From a virus: 34,656 nucleotides of DNA. Shown piece by piece: positions 21,905 through 28,988 of the stretch. The notes below the pieces were generated by a model, which saw only the letters and a program-made list of their open reading frames with translations, was not told where the DNA came from and did not search any database. The number at the start of each line of letters is the position of its first letter. The first letter of the stretch is position 1. The DNA is taken from the IMG/VR virus record IMGVR_UViG_3300042542_001685, positions 1 to 34,656 of that record, one strand, 5' to 3'. A program made the translations under genes and the position numbers.

Positions 21905-23740
21905 TCAGCCTCCGAAAGCCGTTGCGAATGTGCCGCCACGACGCCGCGCTTCAAGGACAGCGCTTTTCGTCGCGTTCGCGATCTGCGGCATGAGGCTTTG
22001 GATCTCGGCACGCACGGTCGCCTGCACGCCCGTCGATACGTTGATCGTCTGATTGATGACGAGGCTTTCGCCGCCGCCCGCATTCAGATTGTTGTTCGGG
22101 ATGATCGTACCGCTGCCGCCGGGAACGAAAAGTTCGGGACCACGCTCACCGACGATGTAAGGCGAATTCCCCATGACGGGACCGCCTTTCGCTTTGAACA
22201 GGCTCGAAATCCAGTCTCCGAAACCGCCGAAGAGATTTCCGAAAAGACCGCCGCCGCCGCTCGACCCAGCACCGGAAAGCGCGCTTTTCATCGTGTTCGC
22301 AAGCGGCTGGAAGATCGTCATTTTGTAGTAGAGCGTCAGGAGGTCTTTAATCATCGAATTGACCATCGACTTCCAGTCAGCCTTACCGGTAAGCGTAAAT
22401 TCGGCCATAGCCGAGGACGCATTATCGGCAAAGTTTTGCACGACGCCTTGTAGACCTTTGATCGCCATTGCAGTCGGATCGGTCTCCGCGCGCGCGTCGA
22501 TAAGCTTCTGACGCAGCCGATCCATGCCGATCGCGAATTGCTCCGCCGTGAACGCTCCGCCTTTGGCGAGTTTCTCAAACTCCGCCATCTGCTTGAGCAC
22601 TTCATAGCCGGGATCGATCAGCGCGCGATATTTATCGATCAGTTCTCCGGCGGCTTTGCCGTTCGCTTTGAGCGCTTCGGTGCCCTTGTTGACGGTGATC
22701 GTGTTCCCGTCATTCGCTTCCGAGTTGTTGTTGATGATGTCGGTCGCGTTTTTAAGGATCGTGTTGAAGTCGACTTGCTGCCCGATGCGATTGCGGATCG
22801 CCTCGCCCGCGCCAGCGAAATCGAGTTCAAGCGCTTTACCGACCGCTTCAACGAAGCTGATGATATCTCGACCGACTTCGAGGAACGCTTGCCCGATAAT
22901 GTAAACGCCAGCCGCGAGATAACGGAAGGCCGTTGCCAGCCCTTCGGCGATCGACTTAAGACCGCTGAATTTGCTCGACGCACGTTCCGTCTGGTTTGCG
23001 GTATCGCCGATCCTATCGAGAAACGTCGATACAGACGGGATGATGTTCGCCGCAAGAATGTTGAAGAAGCCTTCTCCGGCAAATTTGATGCGATCGAGAT
23101 CGTCGCCGAAGCCTTCGAGCGCTTGCGCGGACTGGCTCGCGAAAACCACGCCGAGGTTTTCCGCTTCTTCGAACATTTCGCGGATCCCATCCGCGCCTTC
23201 ATTGAGCAGCGGAATAAGATCCGCACCTTCGCGGCCGAAGATCGCTTGCGCGACAGCCGCCTTACGCATTCCGTCATCGAACCCGCTGATTTTATCGGCG
23301 ATTTCGAGGAACAGGTTTTCGGTCGTTTTTAGCTGACCATTAGCATCCGTGAGCGAAACACCGATGCGCTTGAAGTCATAGGCGATGTTCGATTTCGCGT
23401 TCGACGAAACTTCGTCCATCGCGCGCGAAAGTTTAATCATGCCTTTTTCGAGCGACTCGAATTCGACGCCGCTCATTTTGGCTGCGAAAGACATCGCAGA
23501 CAGAAACTCGACCGAGGCTCCGATTTTCTGCGCGGTTTCGGCGAACTTCGACGCGCGGTCGATCGCGCCTTGTATGCCTTGCACGAAGCCGGCAAAGACC
23601 GACGCGGTCGCGATCCCGGCGAATGCACTCTTAAGCGAAATCGACGCCTTGTTCAGCGTCGATAGGCTGCGATTAACGGAGTTGAACGCAGCTTGCGTTT
23701 TATCCTGCGCCGAGAGCGTGAAATTAAGCGTTTCGGCCAT
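21905..23740 (-). CDS. Tape measure protein
   Basis: This 611-residue protein begins with an alpha-helical region, FTLSAQDKTQAAFNSVNRSLSTLNKASISLKSAFAGIATASVFAGFVQG, as in tape measure proteins. Amphipathic and hydrophobic segments and a Gly-rich C-terminus follow (SGAGSSGGGGLFGNLFGGFGDWISSLF). Using the usual rise of about 0.15 nm per residue, the tail would be near 90 nm, so short for a siphovirus. The gene lies downstream of the G/GT chaperone frame and overlaps it by 17 nt. Confidence 0.92.
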   Translation of the reverse strand: MAETLNFTLSAQDKTQAAFNSVNRSLSTLNKASISLKSAFAGIATASVFAGFVQGIQGAIDRASKFAETAQKIGASVEFLSAMSFAAKMSGVEFESLEKGMIKLSRAMDEVSSNAKSNIAYDFKRIGVSLTDANGQLKTTENLFLEIADKISGFDDGMRKAAVAQAIFGREGADLIPLLNEGADGIREMFEEAENLGVVFASQSAQALEGFGDDLDRIKFAGEGFFNILAANIIPSVSTFLDRIGDTANQTERASSKFSGLKSIAEGLATAFRYLAAGVYIIGQAFLEVGRDIISFVEAVGKALELDFAGAGEAIRNRIGQQVDFNTILKNATDIINNNSEANDGNTITVNKGTEALKANGKAAGELIDKYRALIDPGYEVLKQMAEFEKLAKGGAFTAEQFAIGMDRLRQKLIDARAETDPTAMAIKGLQGVVQNFADNASSAMAEFTLTGKADWKSMVNSMIKDLLTLYYKMTIFQPLANTMKSALSGAGSSGGGGLFGNLFGGFGDWISSLFKAKGGPVMGNSPYIVGERGPELFVPGGSGTIIPNNNLNAGGGESLVINQTINVSTGVQATVRAEIQSLMPQIANATKSAVLEARRRGGTFATAFGG

Positions 23741-24217
23741 TTCTCTGCCTCTCGTTCACAAGTTCAAGATATGCCATCCATTCCAAGATTTCAGAATAAG
23801 GCAGATCCTCGATTTCCGAAACCGTCTTACCGAGCCGATCAGCGAGCGCGAAAGTGACGAAGCGCTCGTGATCGGTCTTCAGTTTTTTAGGAGATCATCC
23901 TGCGACGGTCCCGTCAGGATTTCGTTGGCGATCCGCGCCACGATGTCGGGATCCACTCCATTGAGCAGATCCCGCTTGTGTTCAAGCGTGAACACGTTCG
24001 CACCGGATCCGTCCTTCGCCTTCATGATGATGCAGTCGACGAGAACGCCGAGATCGTTCTCTTTCGCTCCGTTGAAAAGCTTGCGCTTTTCGGCGAGCGT
24101 TAGAGGCGTCACGTAAATAAGGAGAGGCTTGTCAGCCTCTCCCCATTCGGGAACCTCGATCGTTTTGACGGACTGCGCCTTGAAGTGAGCTTTAGCGCGC
24201 TCGATCGGCGAAGACAT
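23724..24217 (-). CDS. Tail assembly chaperone GT (-1 frameshift product)
   Basis: Reading the G gene and slipping -1 at A AAA AAC (23888-23882) opens a 52-codon extension that ends at TAA 23726-23724, for a 164-residue product. The extension begins LKTDHERFVTFALADRLGKTVSEIEDL and contains EILEWMAYLELV, the gpT-style pattern of tail chaperone extensions (LADRLGKTVxEL, exxEWxAY). It has no start codon or ribosome-binding site of its own, and the tape measure gene begins 17 nt before its end. This follows the lambda/HK97 G-GT arrangement, in which the rarer long form brings the tape measure to the tail tube. Confidence 0.88.
23835..23888 (-). promoter_or_regulatory. Programmed -1 frameshift signal: slippery heptamer plus stem-loop
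   Basis: The heptamer AAAAAAC (23888-23882) is in the zero frame as A AAA AAC, one codon before the TGA of the short product. Six bases later, CCGATCACGAGCGC (23875-23862) pairs with GCGCTCGCTGATCGG (23849-23835). This gives 14 bp with a single bulged C and a 12-nt loop. The site, spacing and stable stem fit the general rule for -1 frameshifting. Confidence 0.9.
23879..24217 (-). CDS. Tail assembly chaperone G (short product)
   Basis: This 112-residue zero-frame product begins MSSPIERAKAHFKAQSVKTIEVPEWGE, with PLLIYVTPLTLAEKRKLFNGAKENDLGVLVDCIIMKAKD in the middle and GPSQDDLLKN at the end. The pattern and position (after the tail tube, before the tape measure) are typical of gpG-like chaperones. 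AAAGGGATGA lies upstream of the ATG. The final codons contain the slippery site for the GT form, so G should be made in excess. Confidence 0.9.
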   Translation of the reverse strand: MSSPIERAKAHFKAQSVKTIEVPEWGEADKPLLIYVTPLTLAEKRKLFNGAKENDLGVLVDCIIMKAKDGSGANVFTLEHKRDLLNGVDPDIVARIANEILTGPSQDDLLKN

Positions 24218-24234
24218 CAGATCATCCCTTTATG

Positions 24235-24624
24235 TTAGACGGTCGACTTCGTGAGTGCGCCCGTGCCTTGGAAGTTGAAGGTCGCTTCGACCATACCGTC
24301 GAAGGACGCGGTCGCTTCGATCGACGTAACGAGCACGGTCCCGGTATAGTAGGTGTCGCCCGTCGTCGCGCCTTCGGGATACAGGTTCAGCGTCACCGAC
24401 GCACCCGCCGTCAGCGCCATCTGACCCGTCGTGTCGGTTTCGTCCCAGTAGCAGACGATCGAACCCGTGAAGGTCTTCATGCCGACCTTGTAGGTACGAT
24501 AGGCATCGCCCATCGTCGAGTCCTCGATAGTGTCGGCGGTTTCGGTCAGCGTCCACGAGCGCACTTCGGCGATCGTGTTCGCGCTGATCTTAACGACGCC
24601 TTCGGATCCGGTATGAGTAGCCAT
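24235..24624 (-). CDS. Major tail tube protein
   Basis: This 129-residue beta-rich protein begins MATHTGSEGVVKISANTIAEVRSWTLTETADTIEDSTMGD, a common opening in siphophage tail tube proteins (gpV type). KTFTGSIVCYWDETDTTGQ and TGTVLVTSIEATASFDGMVEATFNFQGTGAL follow as strand pairs. Length and place before G/GT fit the tube subunit. There is no added immunoglobulin-like domain. It would be the most abundant tail protein. Confidence 0.9.
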   Translation of the reverse strand: MATHTGSEGVVKISANTIAEVRSWTLTETADTIEDSTMGDAYRTYKVGMKTFTGSIVCYWDETDTTGQMALTAGASVTLNLYPEGATTGDTYYTGTVLVTSIEATASFDGMVEATFNFQGTGALTKSTV

Positions 24625-24633
24625 GTTATCGCC

Positions 24634-25077
24634 TCACGATGCGCTTTCAACGTCGGTTTCGGAGGTGCGGTAGCGCACCGAAAAAGTCATGCGGATCGAG
24701 CCGACAGGCTGTTCCCCATCCGAGTTATAATCTATTTCGGTCCCGGTTAAAACGGTGTCTTTCGCCAAGCCGTCGAAGGTCGGCGCTGACAACATCGCTT
24801 CTTCGACTTCCACCGCGATCTGATCGAGCGTGTTGTCGAGACCGGACGTTCCCTTCGCCATGCCTTCGATCATGAAATCGACCGTGCGCATATATTTCCG
24901 CGGTCGCGTCATGGTCTCCGGTTCCGAGACTTCGCGAAGAGTGTATATCAGCAAGCCGGGAAGCGCCGAGCCCTGCATAGGATAAAACCGCGTCTGATAG
25001 ACGCGCGCTCCGGTCGTCGTAAGACCCGTGACGCGGGTCGTGACTTTATCGCGGATCTGCTTGCGGAGGTGCGACAT
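24634..25077 (-). CDS. Tail terminator / minor tail protein U-like
   Basis: This 147-residue protein with MSHLRKQIRDKVTTRVTGLTTTGARVYQTRFYPMQGSALPGLLIYT, then MRTVDFMIEG and IRMTFSVRYRT, matches the gpU-like tail terminator style. These proteins cap the head-proximal end of the tail tube and bind the neck. It sits between the head-completion protein and the tail tube as in lambda. The gene overlaps its upstream neighbour by one base. Confidence 0.8.
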   Translation of the reverse strand: MSHLRKQIRDKVTTRVTGLTTTGARVYQTRFYPMQGSALPGLLIYTLREVSEPETMTRPRKYMRTVDFMIEGMAKGTSGLDNTLDQIAVEVEEAMLSAPTFDGLAKDTVLTGTEIDYNSDGEQPVGSIRMTFSVRYRTSETDVESAS

Positions 25078-25636: not shown

Positions 25637-26147
25637 CCCAGCACCTTTGCATTTCTGCGCATGTGAACCGGACCTTTGCGGGATCCGAAATAGAAGCCTT
25701 CGCGATAGACCAGATCGTCTTATCTCTCTGGTAGGCGTTGTTGAGCGCCCGTTCTTCCGGTTGGTCGTGCCAATACCGACGATCGGTCGCATACCCATCC
25801 ATACCACAAACTCGGATTTCATCATATCCGAGGAAATCGGCAAGCCATACCGCTTTGGGACCGGATAGATTGAAATTCGGGATGATCCCGGCCCAGATCA
25901 TTTTATCGCCGCGCAAATCTCGGAAGTGCGACACCTTGTAGGCCGGATGGTCTTTGACGAGATCGAAGACGGGACGATCGGAAAAGAGAACGTAGGACAA
26001 CGGCAGAAGCAGCGAGTGCTGATTGACGCCGATCAGGTCGAAGCGCTGCGGCAGATGATAGATATCATGCAGCAAGCTAGGAGCGCCGCCGAGAACCGCG
26101 ACGCTTTCCCCTTTGTGCCGATCTTTATAGATGATGAGGTCGTGCAT
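25626..26147 (-). CDS. DUF115/MptE-like Rossmann protein (possible glycosyltransferase-like moron)
   Basis: The start is set at ATG 26147 (MHDLIIYKDRHKGESVAVLGGAPSLLHD), directly after a transcription terminator. The frame is open further upstream, but that part would translate the terminator hairpin. The 173-residue product has a Rossmann-like VAVLGGAPSL, RFDLIGVNQH, SYVLFSDRPVFDLV and a late IRVCGMDGY, reminiscent of DUF115/MptE-like proteins, some of which act on sugars. No ribosome-binding site is visible. It is out of place between capsid and neck genes, so it may be an added cargo gene. Function stays uncertain. Confidence 0.6.
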   Translation of the reverse strand: MHDLIIYKDRHKGESVAVLGGAPSLLHDIYHLPQRFDLIGVNQHSLLLPLSYVLFSDRPVFDLVKDHPAYKVSHFRDLRGDKMIWAGIIPNFNLSGPKAVWLADFLGYDEIRVCGMDGYATDRRYWHDQPEERALNNAYQRDKTIWSIAKASISDPAKVRFTCAEMQRCWDEN

Positions 26148-26149
26148 AT

Positions 26150-26175
26150 AAAAATGGGCGGCCGAAGCCGCCCAT
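26150..26175 (-). terminator. Intrinsic terminator after the capsid gene
   Basis: On the minus strand ATGGGCGGC pairs with GCCGCCCAT around a TTCG loop, followed by TTTT and A. It begins 18 nt after the capsid stop. It should reduce transcription into the neck and tail genes, keeping capsid message in excess. Genes downstream would depend on read-through. Confidence 0.88.
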
Positions 26176-26192
26176 TCCTTTCGTGCCACGGA

Positions 26193-27455
26193 TTAGGTGG
26201 TGACGATTTCCTTACAAGCCGCGAAGGACTGCGCATTGCGCACAGCAACGTCCACGTCTTGGAAGAAGGCGATGCGCGTGCCGCCCGAGGTCGAGAGCGA
26301 CGACGTGTCGACCACGATATCGAGACCGGAGAACATGCCGATCATGAGATCGTTGAAGTTGCCGAAGATCATCGCCGAAAGAGCCGAGCCCGAGCCCTTC
26401 GTCAGATCGGACGGAACGAGGTTCGTTTCCGCGACCTGATAGCCGAGCAGGTTGTTCGTCTCGCCGAGGATGAAGTTACCTTCGACGCCGGAGGTCTGCT
26501 TCGCCGTCTGACGCAGCTTCGACACGACCTTCGAGTTCGTGAGATAAGCGAGCGAACCCGTAAGAGCGTTGTCGATCGCAACTTCACGCTGAAGGTTGAC
26601 GACGGTGGCATAGGTCGGAGCGCCGCCGTTGGTGCCGATCGTAACCGCGCCGATGCCCGAGGTGCCGAGGATGCCGACAGGCTCGTTCGAGCCGCCGCCT
26701 TCGATCGCCACTTCGTCGATCTTGCCCGCAATCTGACGAGTGATGTCGTCGCGGAGAACCGCTTCGACAGACGGGTCGGACTGGATCATGAGGCGACGAG
26801 ACAGGTCGACGTAACCCGCGACCGTCTTCGGCGACATCGTGACCTGAGCGAAGACGGGAGCGCCTTCGGTCGGAGCCGAGCCTTCAGCGACGAAGGCAAC
26901 GGCAGTGCGGGTCGACAGCTTCGGGATCGCCACGTTGCCCTGCAGACCCGTCATCATGCGAGCGCCGAGGCTCGAGATGACGAGCGCTTCGCGCAGCGCG
27001 TCGATGAAGAGATCACCGCGGTGATCGGTGCCGACCAGATAGCCGCCCTTCGACGTGCCCGTGCCGATGCCCGTCGTCACATCGCGCTGCGACCAGCGGA
27101 TGTCGTTCGGGACGTAGAAGCCGCGAGCGTCCTTGCCGGTACGCTTGGCGATTTCGTCGGACAGTTCGCGCTCGAAGCCGGCCTTGCGCCAGTCGTTCGA
27201 AGCCGCCGCGTTGATCGCGCGGAGGAGGCTATAGTTGCGCTTTTCGGCGACGGTCAGGCCGACCATGGCGTTCGAAGCGAAAGCTTCGGTGCCGATTGCA
27301 TCGAGGATTACGCCACGGAACTGCTCGACGGAGAGACCGTCAGCAACAGCCTTTTCGGCGAGGTCGCGCTTGTTGTGCTTCGCGCCGAGGTCCATGATGG
27401 ACTTGGCGTTGCGAGCGAATTCCGCCCGCATTTCGTCGTGATTAACTTCGGTCAT
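26193..27455 (-). CDS. Major capsid protein from internal start
   Basis: TAAGGAG (27468-27462) lies 6 nt upstream of an in-frame ATG at 27455, so a 420-residue protein beginning MTEVNHDEMRAEFARNAK could be made independently of the fusion. This size fits an HK97-type precursor with an N-terminal scaffold-like segment of about 100 residues that is cleaved off. The preceding residues (IPKITVVKESP) show no stop codon, so the long fusion should also form. The arrangement would give many capsid subunits per protease, as capsids need. Confidence 0.85.
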   Translation of the reverse strand: MTEVNHDEMRAEFARNAKSIMDLGAKHNKRDLAEKAVADGLSVEQFRGVILDAIGTEAFASNAMVGLTVAEKRNYSLLRAINAAASNDWRKAGFERELSDEIAKRTGKDARGFYVPNDIRWSQRDVTTGIGTGTSKGGYLVGTDHRGDLFIDALREALVISSLGARMMTGLQGNVAIPKLSTRTAVAFVAEGSAPTEGAPVFAQVTMSPKTVAGYVDLSRRLMIQSDPSVEAVLRDDITRQIAGKIDEVAIEGGGSNEPVGILGTSGIGAVTIGTNGGAPTYATVVNLQREVAIDNALTGSLAYLTNSKVVSKLRQTAKQTSGVEGNFILGETNNLLGYQVAETNLVPSDLTKGSGSALSAMIFGNFNDLMIGMFSGLDIVVDTSSLSTSGGTRIAFFQDVDVAVRNAQSFAACKEIVTT

Positions 27456-28988
27456 GGGACTCTCCTTAACGACCGTGATTTTCGGGATCTCTGCGCTTCG
27501 TCCGACTCCCACGGATGCATCAGCGGGGATAGAGACGACAGAGACTTCAAGAGGGGTCCAGTCGTTAACGCGGAAGATCGTCCCATCTGCCGCATCTTCT
27601 CGGACCATGTTGTTGACGCGATAGCCGACCGAGATGTTCGACCGGATCCCGTCCACGACATCATCGAAGACCTCTTTAGCCAGTCCGCTTCTCCCGAAGC
27701 GAACCGTCGCTCGCATCACGCGAGCCGAGCTATCGACGGTGATATCTTCGACAATGCCGATCTGCTGCCGCGGATCGTGGTCGAGCAGCAAAGGCGCGCG
27801 ACCGGATCCGAGGAAACTAAGATCGATGCTCGACGAGGTATGGTCGAGCACTTCGACGCCGAAAGACCTTTCGACAGGCATTTCGGACGAAACTGCAATG
27901 CGAACCCGACGCGAGGTTTCGTCGACGGGTTTCGCGCCCATAAGCATGGAACGATGCGAGAGATCCGCCGCGCGGTCCTCATTGAGCATCATGCCGGGAG
28001 CCATTTCCATCGCGATATCATCTTCGATATCATCGGCTTCGGCTTCCGGCTCTTCCATTTCCGGCTTCGGGTCGGTGTCGATTTCGACTTCGACCGTGAC
28101 CATCATTCGCTGTTCGTCGGTCATGTCGTCCTCGCCGATAGCCTCTTCGAATTCGATCGGCGAATAATCATGTTCATCGAGCCATGCACGCGCCGCAGAC
28201 GGTGAGAACAATCTACTGTCAAAACGGATGGCTTGCAATTCTGCCGTACCGCCCGTGATACCATAGATCGCATCGATGCCTTCGCCGAAGGCGTCGTTTT
28301 CGCGCCGGAAGCGTTCGTATTGATCGGGATCGCGAAGCCGCGCCGCGTGTTCGTTCGGATAGGGACGCTCGTCATAACCGCGCAGTGCGTTGATTTTGCG
28401 CAGCGTCGAGAAGCGATGCCCGACGAGCGTTTCGGTCGCTTCCCAGCCTTCCGATCCTTCGCGATAGATGCGGATCAACGCAGCCGGATCTTCCGGCGTC
28501 GCGTTGATTGAAAATTCGGAGTCGGGGATGCCGAGAACGCCTTCGCGCATGATGTGTTCGATCCGGCCGCGAGCGGTGCCGCCGGAGGAGTCCCACGACA
28601 CGAAATCACCGACTTCGAGATCGCCGGGAGCCGCGCGATCGTTTTCATCGATCGAGTCCATACGAGCCGCCTTTGCTTCTGCCCATGATTTGCCGGGATC
28701 GCCGCCCCAAAGAGCCCATGCGATCCGACCGTTCGACGGATAGCCATCCTCACCGGGACGGAAACCTTCGGCCTGTTTATCAACCTCGTGGCGCGCGAAG
28801 AAACTCGTCATCCGCCCGATCGTCTCCGGCGAAAGATCGACCTTGTTCTTGATGTCGCGCGCGCGAGCGATCCCAACCTCGGTGCCGCCGCGGCCGAATT
28901 CTTGCCGCCACGCGAGACCGCGTTCGGCTTCTTCGGCCATCGCGTCGCTCGGCACGAGATTGATTTCGACGCCTTTATACGTTGCCAT
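26193..28988 (-). CDS. Multi-domain fusion: N-terminal modules, prohead protease and HK97 major capsid
   Basis: One frame of 931 codons. Residues 1-115 hold GLAWRQEFGRGGTEVG, FFARHEVD and GRIAWALWGGDPGKSW, a module often separate in phages. Residues 120-285 resemble a DUF2945 Tudor-like strand set (VGDFVSWDSSGGTARGRI) plus RPYPNEHAARLRDPDQYERF and QAIRF. Residues 335-500 are an S78-type protease, with LLLDHDP (H404) and RSNISVGYRV (S453), about 50 apart as in HK97. Residues 512-931 are a capsid with a helical delta-like segment and an HK97 fold (GGYLVGTD, VGILGTSG, FGNFNDLMIGMF). GAGG precedes the first ATG. A strong internal start lies at 27455. Confidence 0.9.
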   Translation of the reverse strand: MATYKGVEINLVPSDAMAEEAERGLAWRQEFGRGGTEVGIARARDIKNKVDLSPETIGRMTSFFARHEVDKQAEGFRPGEDGYPSNGRIAWALWGGDPGKSWAEAKAARMDSIDENDRAAPGDLEVGDFVSWDSSGGTARGRIEHIMREGVLGIPDSEFSINATPEDPAALIRIYREGSEGWEATETLVGHRFSTLRKINALRGYDERPYPNEHAARLRDPDQYERFRRENDAFGEGIDAIYGITGGTAELQAIRFDSRLFSPSAARAWLDEHDYSPIEFEEAIGEDDMTDEQRMMVTVEVEIDTDPKPEMEEPEAEADDIEDDIAMEMAPGMMLNEDRAADLSHRSMLMGAKPVDETSRRVRIAVSSEMPVERSFGVEVLDHTSSSIDLSFLGSGRAPLLLDHDPRQQIGIVEDITVDSSARVMRATVRFGRSGLAKEVFDDVVDGIRSNISVGYRVNNMVREDAADGTIFRVNDWTPLEVSVVSIPADASVGVGRSAEIPKITVVKESPMTEVNHDEMRAEFARNAKSIMDLGAKHNKRDLAEKAVADGLSVEQFRGVILDAIGTEAFASNAMVGLTVAEKRNYSLLRAINAAASNDWRKAGFERELSDEIAKRTGKDARGFYVPNDIRWSQRDVTTGIGTGTSKGGYLVGTDHRGDLFIDALREALVISSLGARMMTGLQGNVAIPKLSTRTAVAFVAEGSAPTEGAPVFAQVTMSPKTVAGYVDLSRRLMIQSDPSVEAVLRDDITRQIAGKIDEVAIEGGGSNEPVGILGTSGIGAVTIGTNGGAPTYATVVNLQREVAIDNALTGSLAYLTNSKVVSKLRQTAKQTSGVEGNFILGETNNLLGYQVAETNLVPSDLTKGSGSALSAMIFGNFNDLMIGMFSGLDIVVDTSSLSTSGGTRIAFFQDVDVAVRNAQSFAACKEIVTT
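27462..27468 (-). promoter_or_regulatory. Internal Shine-Dalgarno for capsid
   Basis: TAAGGAG on the minus strand matches the 16S anti-Shine-Dalgarno over seven bases, with 6 nt to the ATG at 27455. It is a better site than most real gene starts in the window, and decides the internal capsid start. Confidence 0.85.

Follow-up and report, generated by a model that had tools for sequence, protein, structure and literature searches.

The G and GT tail assembly chaperones of phage lambda reportedly arise by −1 programmed frameshifting, as described by Xu, Hendrix and Duda, and the lambda slippery heptamer is GGGAAAG. Lambda produces gpG and gpGT at about 30:1; the tape measure protein is bound by the G parts and the tube subunit by the T part (PMC5009743). 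The closest annotated cultured example to the locus described here is Rhodobacter phage RcCronus, whose record already annotates the chaperone as a join; the −1 frameshift is also named in the paper on this phage (PMC4882933). Lambda-type G/GT −1 frameshifting being already well known, the locus that we describe in the 34,656-nt stretch of viral DNA analyzed (IMG/VR record IMGVR_UViG_3300042542_001685, positions 1 to 34,656, hereafter the window) is clear but ordinary in kind. Based on its anatomy, conservation, coding constraint and homology, we consider it very probable that it encodes a G/GT tail assembly chaperone with a lambda-type −1 frameshift in an uncultured siphovirus-like phage.

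Pfam and PHROG profile matches give a minus-strand gene order of tail terminator, major tail protein, G(T) and tape measure (Table 1), so that G(T) is flanked by the genes for the major tail protein and the tape measure, as in known G/GT loci, and the end of the extension overlaps the tape measure start (23740) by 17 nt. Against PHROG, G alone matches phrog_16513 (E = 4.9e-6) and phrog_344 (E = 1.2e-4), both described as “tail assembly chaperone,” and in a Pfam search neither G nor the extension scored above the cut-off. Furthermore, when an AlphaFold2 model made of G alone (pLDDT 86) is compared with solved structures, the HK97 tail assembly chaperone 2OB9 ranks first (Foldseek E = 0.012, probability 1.00, TM about 0.6, 18% identity), and the best viral structure matches include the RcRhea tail assembly chaperone (E = 1.3e-4). 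The profile and fold matches show the short form to be homologous to known tail assembly chaperones, and the G part is predicted from the model to fold like that of HK97. Together with the gene order, these matches uphold the earlier note, made from the DNA letters alone, in its reading of the locus as a tail chaperone GT. A PDB sequence search returned a weak match (E = 0.005) to an unrelated protein, which we regard as chance. Elsewhere in the window, a 759-codon open frame on the plus strand (25926-28205) lies antisense to a 931-aa gene on the minus strand (26193-28988) and is probably a codon-bias artefact.

Table 1. Features of the G/GT locus in the window
Feature	Coordinates	Strand	Evidence or remark
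Tail terminator	24634..25077	-	phrog_4204, E = 2.5e-27
Major tail (tube) protein, directly 5' of G	24235..24624	-	Phage_tail_2, E = 2e-6; phrog_1407, E = 1.4e-18
Gene G, tail assembly chaperone short form, 112 aa/codons	23879..24217	-	ORF; PHROG matches; AlphaFold2 model
AGGA, Shine-Dalgarno-like, 9 nt 5' of heptamer	23898..23901	-	Kept in 5/5 close sequences
Slippery heptamer A AAA AAC	23882..23888	-	Phase verified; kept in 17/17 loci of the G-only search (AAC or AAT form)
UGA stop of short form, adjoining the heptamer 3' end	23879..23881	-	Distance 0 also in 69/73 unique loci
Spacer UGAAGA, 6 nt, stop included	23876..23881	-	Sequence re-read; close-relative alignment
Stem-loop: 14 bp, one bulged C, 12-nt loop	23835..23875	-	Fold; close-relative alignment
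T-like extension, 52 codons plus UAA stop (23726..23724)	23724..23882	-	-1 frame; PHROG matches; coding signature
Tail tape measure protein, 611 aa	21905..23740	-	Tape_meas_lam_C, E = 1.3e-9; phrog_8462, E = 9.3e-49

On the minus strand, the 3' end of G reads ...CUA AAA AAC UGA. The site had been described in the earlier note as a heptamer A AAA AAC followed immediately by the short-form stop codon, a 6-nt spacer, a 14-bp stem with one bulge and a −1 frame of 52 codons without a start of its own, and we find each of these parts as described: the heptamer is base-exact and in phase, the spacer and the stem with its bulged C are exact, and the extension runs to its UAA with the first start-like codon at codon 33. 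The stem is built from a 5' arm of 14 nt (23875..23862), the 12-nt loop and a 3' arm of 15 nt (23849..23835), and the run of A at the slip site is A6 only. The octamer AAAAAACT is found twice in the window versus 0.76 times expected and is by itself common enough; what chance does not account for is that it sits where G ends and that it recurs in relatives.

With respect to this recurrence, we queried IMG/VR with the G protein but not the extension and obtained 17 loci from about four lineages, all 17 of which carry A AAA AAC or A AAA AAT adjoining the G stop together with a homologous −1 extension. At the level of sequence comparison, we take this recurrence to be the decisive evidence against chance. 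Loss of the heptamer or of the reading frame in close relatives, which had been named beforehand as the result that would count against a programmed frameshift, is not seen at any of these 17 loci. As to the conservation among homologues that was proposed for checking at the same time, the heptamer is kept in 17/17 loci and the stem in the four nearest relatives only. A wider locus set shows the heptamer arrangement in 96/96 cases, these loci being mostly selected with the whole fusion and hence query-biased. Among 73 unique loci, the heptamer is A AAA AAC in 52, A AAA AAG in 14, A AAA AAT in 4 and another sequence in 3, and the stop follows it directly in 69 (14 of 18 clusters at 60% identity). 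A nucleotide search of cultured phages gave partial matches only (60 to 80%).

The length of the A-run in the 73 unique loci is 6 (12 loci), 7 (10), 8 (28), 9 (15) or 10 (6), with no A-run in 2, and runs of A9-A10 at the slip site are seen in AT-rich marine relatives (L006-L014, L019, L023 and others). Runs of A9-A10 are plausible polymerase slippage sites, and the fused frame could in principle be carried by part of the mRNA if RNA polymerase added an A within the run, an explanation favored by the slip site being an A-run that reaches 9 to 10 bases in some of these loci. The run in the window is merely A6, however, transcriptional slippage would need neither a stem nor X XXY YYZ phasing, and RcCronus has GGGAAAC at the same place, with no A-run of the required length. 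We consider transcriptional slippage very unlikely as an account of the locus; it is disfavored for the window and possible for the A9-A10 relatives.

The extension, with the translation LKTDHERFVTFALADRLGKTVSEIEDLPYSEILEWMAYLELVNERQRNGRNA over its 52 codons, begins with CUG (23882..23880) in a −1 frame that is open from 23894, and the earliest ATG, GTG or TTG in this frame lies within the conserved part of the extension, indicating that it has no start of its own. We compared the window with its four closest relatives (85 to 90% identity), summing codon differences over pairs, and observe 129 synonymous versus 66 nonsynonymous differences in the −1 frame of the extension, whereas the other two frames show synonymous:nonsynonymous counts of 25:163 and 14:182 and both carry stops, indicating that the extension is protein-coding in the −1 frame. 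The best match of the extension alone is phrog_337 (tail protein, E = 2.4e-7); against phrog_16513, the extension alone gives E = 0.028. For the fusion of G and extension, the match to phrog_16513 (tail assembly chaperone; profile of 160 residues) spans residues 5 to 156 and has an E value of 7.3e-14, much stronger than that of either G alone or the extension alone. The extension is a T-homologous −1 frame under protein-level selection that lacks its own start, as is characteristic of a G/GT locus.

If the extension were instead a gene T of its own, with translation by reinitiation or at a nonstandard start, its first codon CUG would make termination and restart overlap, and a 36-aa open reading frame is annotated at this place in phage phi3LM21. 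This is highly improbable with no ATG, GTG or TTG ahead of codon 33, with a −1 frame that opens merely four codons ahead of the extension and with a heptamer that is kept, though reinitiation would not need one. Readthrough of the UGA in frame 0, which in the window is open for a further 40 codons, is less credible still: three of the four close relatives have a stop in frame 0 within about 8 codons, one close relative has UAA instead of UGA, and the frame-0 sequence is without coding constraint (25:163). That the frameshift reflects decay or a sequencing error in a GT gene that is really continuous, conceivable for a single contig with an indel-prone A-run, can likewise be all but dismissed, as 17 other contigs and cultured phages of separate projects have the same arrangement, mostly with the abutting stop.

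The stem downstream of the heptamer folds at −25.1 kcal/mol (z = −3.1), with 1 of 200 dinucleotide shuffles equally stable, and its stability is reached by 2 of 2,000 synonymous draws using the phage's own codon usage and by 0 of 2,000 synonymous shuffles. In the window and its four nearest relatives the stem is nearly invariant, the loop-closing pair alone varying. Variable third codon positions number 1/10 in the stem versus 25/35 in the rest of the extension (Fisher's P = 0.0008), or 1/10 versus 26/42 without exclusions (P = 0.004). This third-position constraint speaks for a constraint at the RNA level that comes without covariation, and no compensatory base changes in the stem were found among these five sequences. 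Remoter relatives have other or weak folds, and with conservation confined to the four nearest relatives, a role of the stem in stimulating slippage is plausible and not more; G/GT loci usually, though not necessarily, have a stimulatory RNA structure 3' of the heptamer. Averaged over 73 loci, the z score of the downstream fold is −1.6, with a strong stem limited to a few groups, and we therefore claim no family-wide RNA structure; an Rfam search of the frameshift site gave no match. Upstream of the heptamer, the AGGA is a possible stimulator, suggestive only, and resembles the upstream stimulator of dnaX. Furthermore, GAG is enriched over GAA 8 to 17 nt 5' of the heptamer across the 73 unique loci (43/67 versus 223/630, P = 8e-6, in a comparison that ignores kinship).

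Under lambda-type −1 frameshifting, most ribosomes would stop at the UGA and release gpG of 112 aa, while a minority would shift into the −1 frame on A AAA AAC and translate a further 52 codons to give a gpGT of about 164 aa; the tryptic peptide expected from the window's own protein is TVSEIEDLPYSEILEWMAYLELVNER. We infer the slippage itself, its rate and its stimulation by the stem and AGGA. By analogy with lambda, the G part would serve to coat the tape measure protein, with tube subunits recruited by the T part, so that the G:GT ratio may well matter for tail assembly. Frameshifting in E. coli is much weaker on A AAA AAC than on A AAA AAG (PMC5009743), which makes the use of A AAA AAC here notable and leaves the frameshift efficiency in this phage's host uncertain; no tRNA genes were found in the window, so this source gives no clue to the host. 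With the stop adjoining the heptamer in most loci and A AAA AAC as the prevailing form, the stop could have a role in slippage. The stop itself might then belong to the signal, with a ribosome paused at termination, tRNA-Asn in its P site, slipping back, which we regard as a speculative and rather unlikely option. If true, this would make the locus a variant of −1 frameshifting coupled to termination, in which release-factor supply would tune G:GT. Loci that combine A AAA AAC with the abutting stop provide a test set for −1 slippage outside E. coli.

The locus adds a well-conserved G/GT frameshift example in an uncultured lineage related to alphaproteobacterial phages. Among cultured relatives, the heptamer is at stop distance 0 in six of eight, with phi3LM21 at distance 3. 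The Cronusvirus phages RcCronus, RcSaxon and RcRhea resemble the window in a homologous G (29% identity), a stop directly after the heptamer and a −1 extension, there of 46 codons, and differ from it in the heptamer, which is GGGAAAC rather than AAAAAAC. Roseobacter phages CRP-823 and CRP-811 and Pelagibacter phages HTVC026P, HTVC202P and HTVC112P share with the window both a homologous G and a homologous extension, with A AAA AAC right before the stop in all but HTVC112P, which has A AAA AAG; unlike the window, they are without an equivalent strong stem. In the records of these five phages (L020, L026, L019, L023 and L025, respectively), G is annotated and the T extension, present immediately 3' of the G stop, is not. 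The word “unannotated” in the earlier note thus fits several cultured relatives, though not RcCronus. In Sinorhizobium phage phi3LM21, the 36-aa “hypothetical protein” p41 (L021:2893-3003) lies inside an apparent −1 chaperone extension.

The distance of zero between heptamer and stop is mildly unusual when set against the PRFect means of 26 nt for the SEA-PHAGES training set and 36 nt for the Xu set (PMC10274946). Compared with lambda G/GT, the window has the same placement of the site between the tube and tape measure genes, the same −1 direction, a heptamer at the end of G and a short form accompanied by an extended form with a T-like extension, and it differs in that the stop directly adjoins A AAA AAC and in that its T part, at 52 codons, is shorter.
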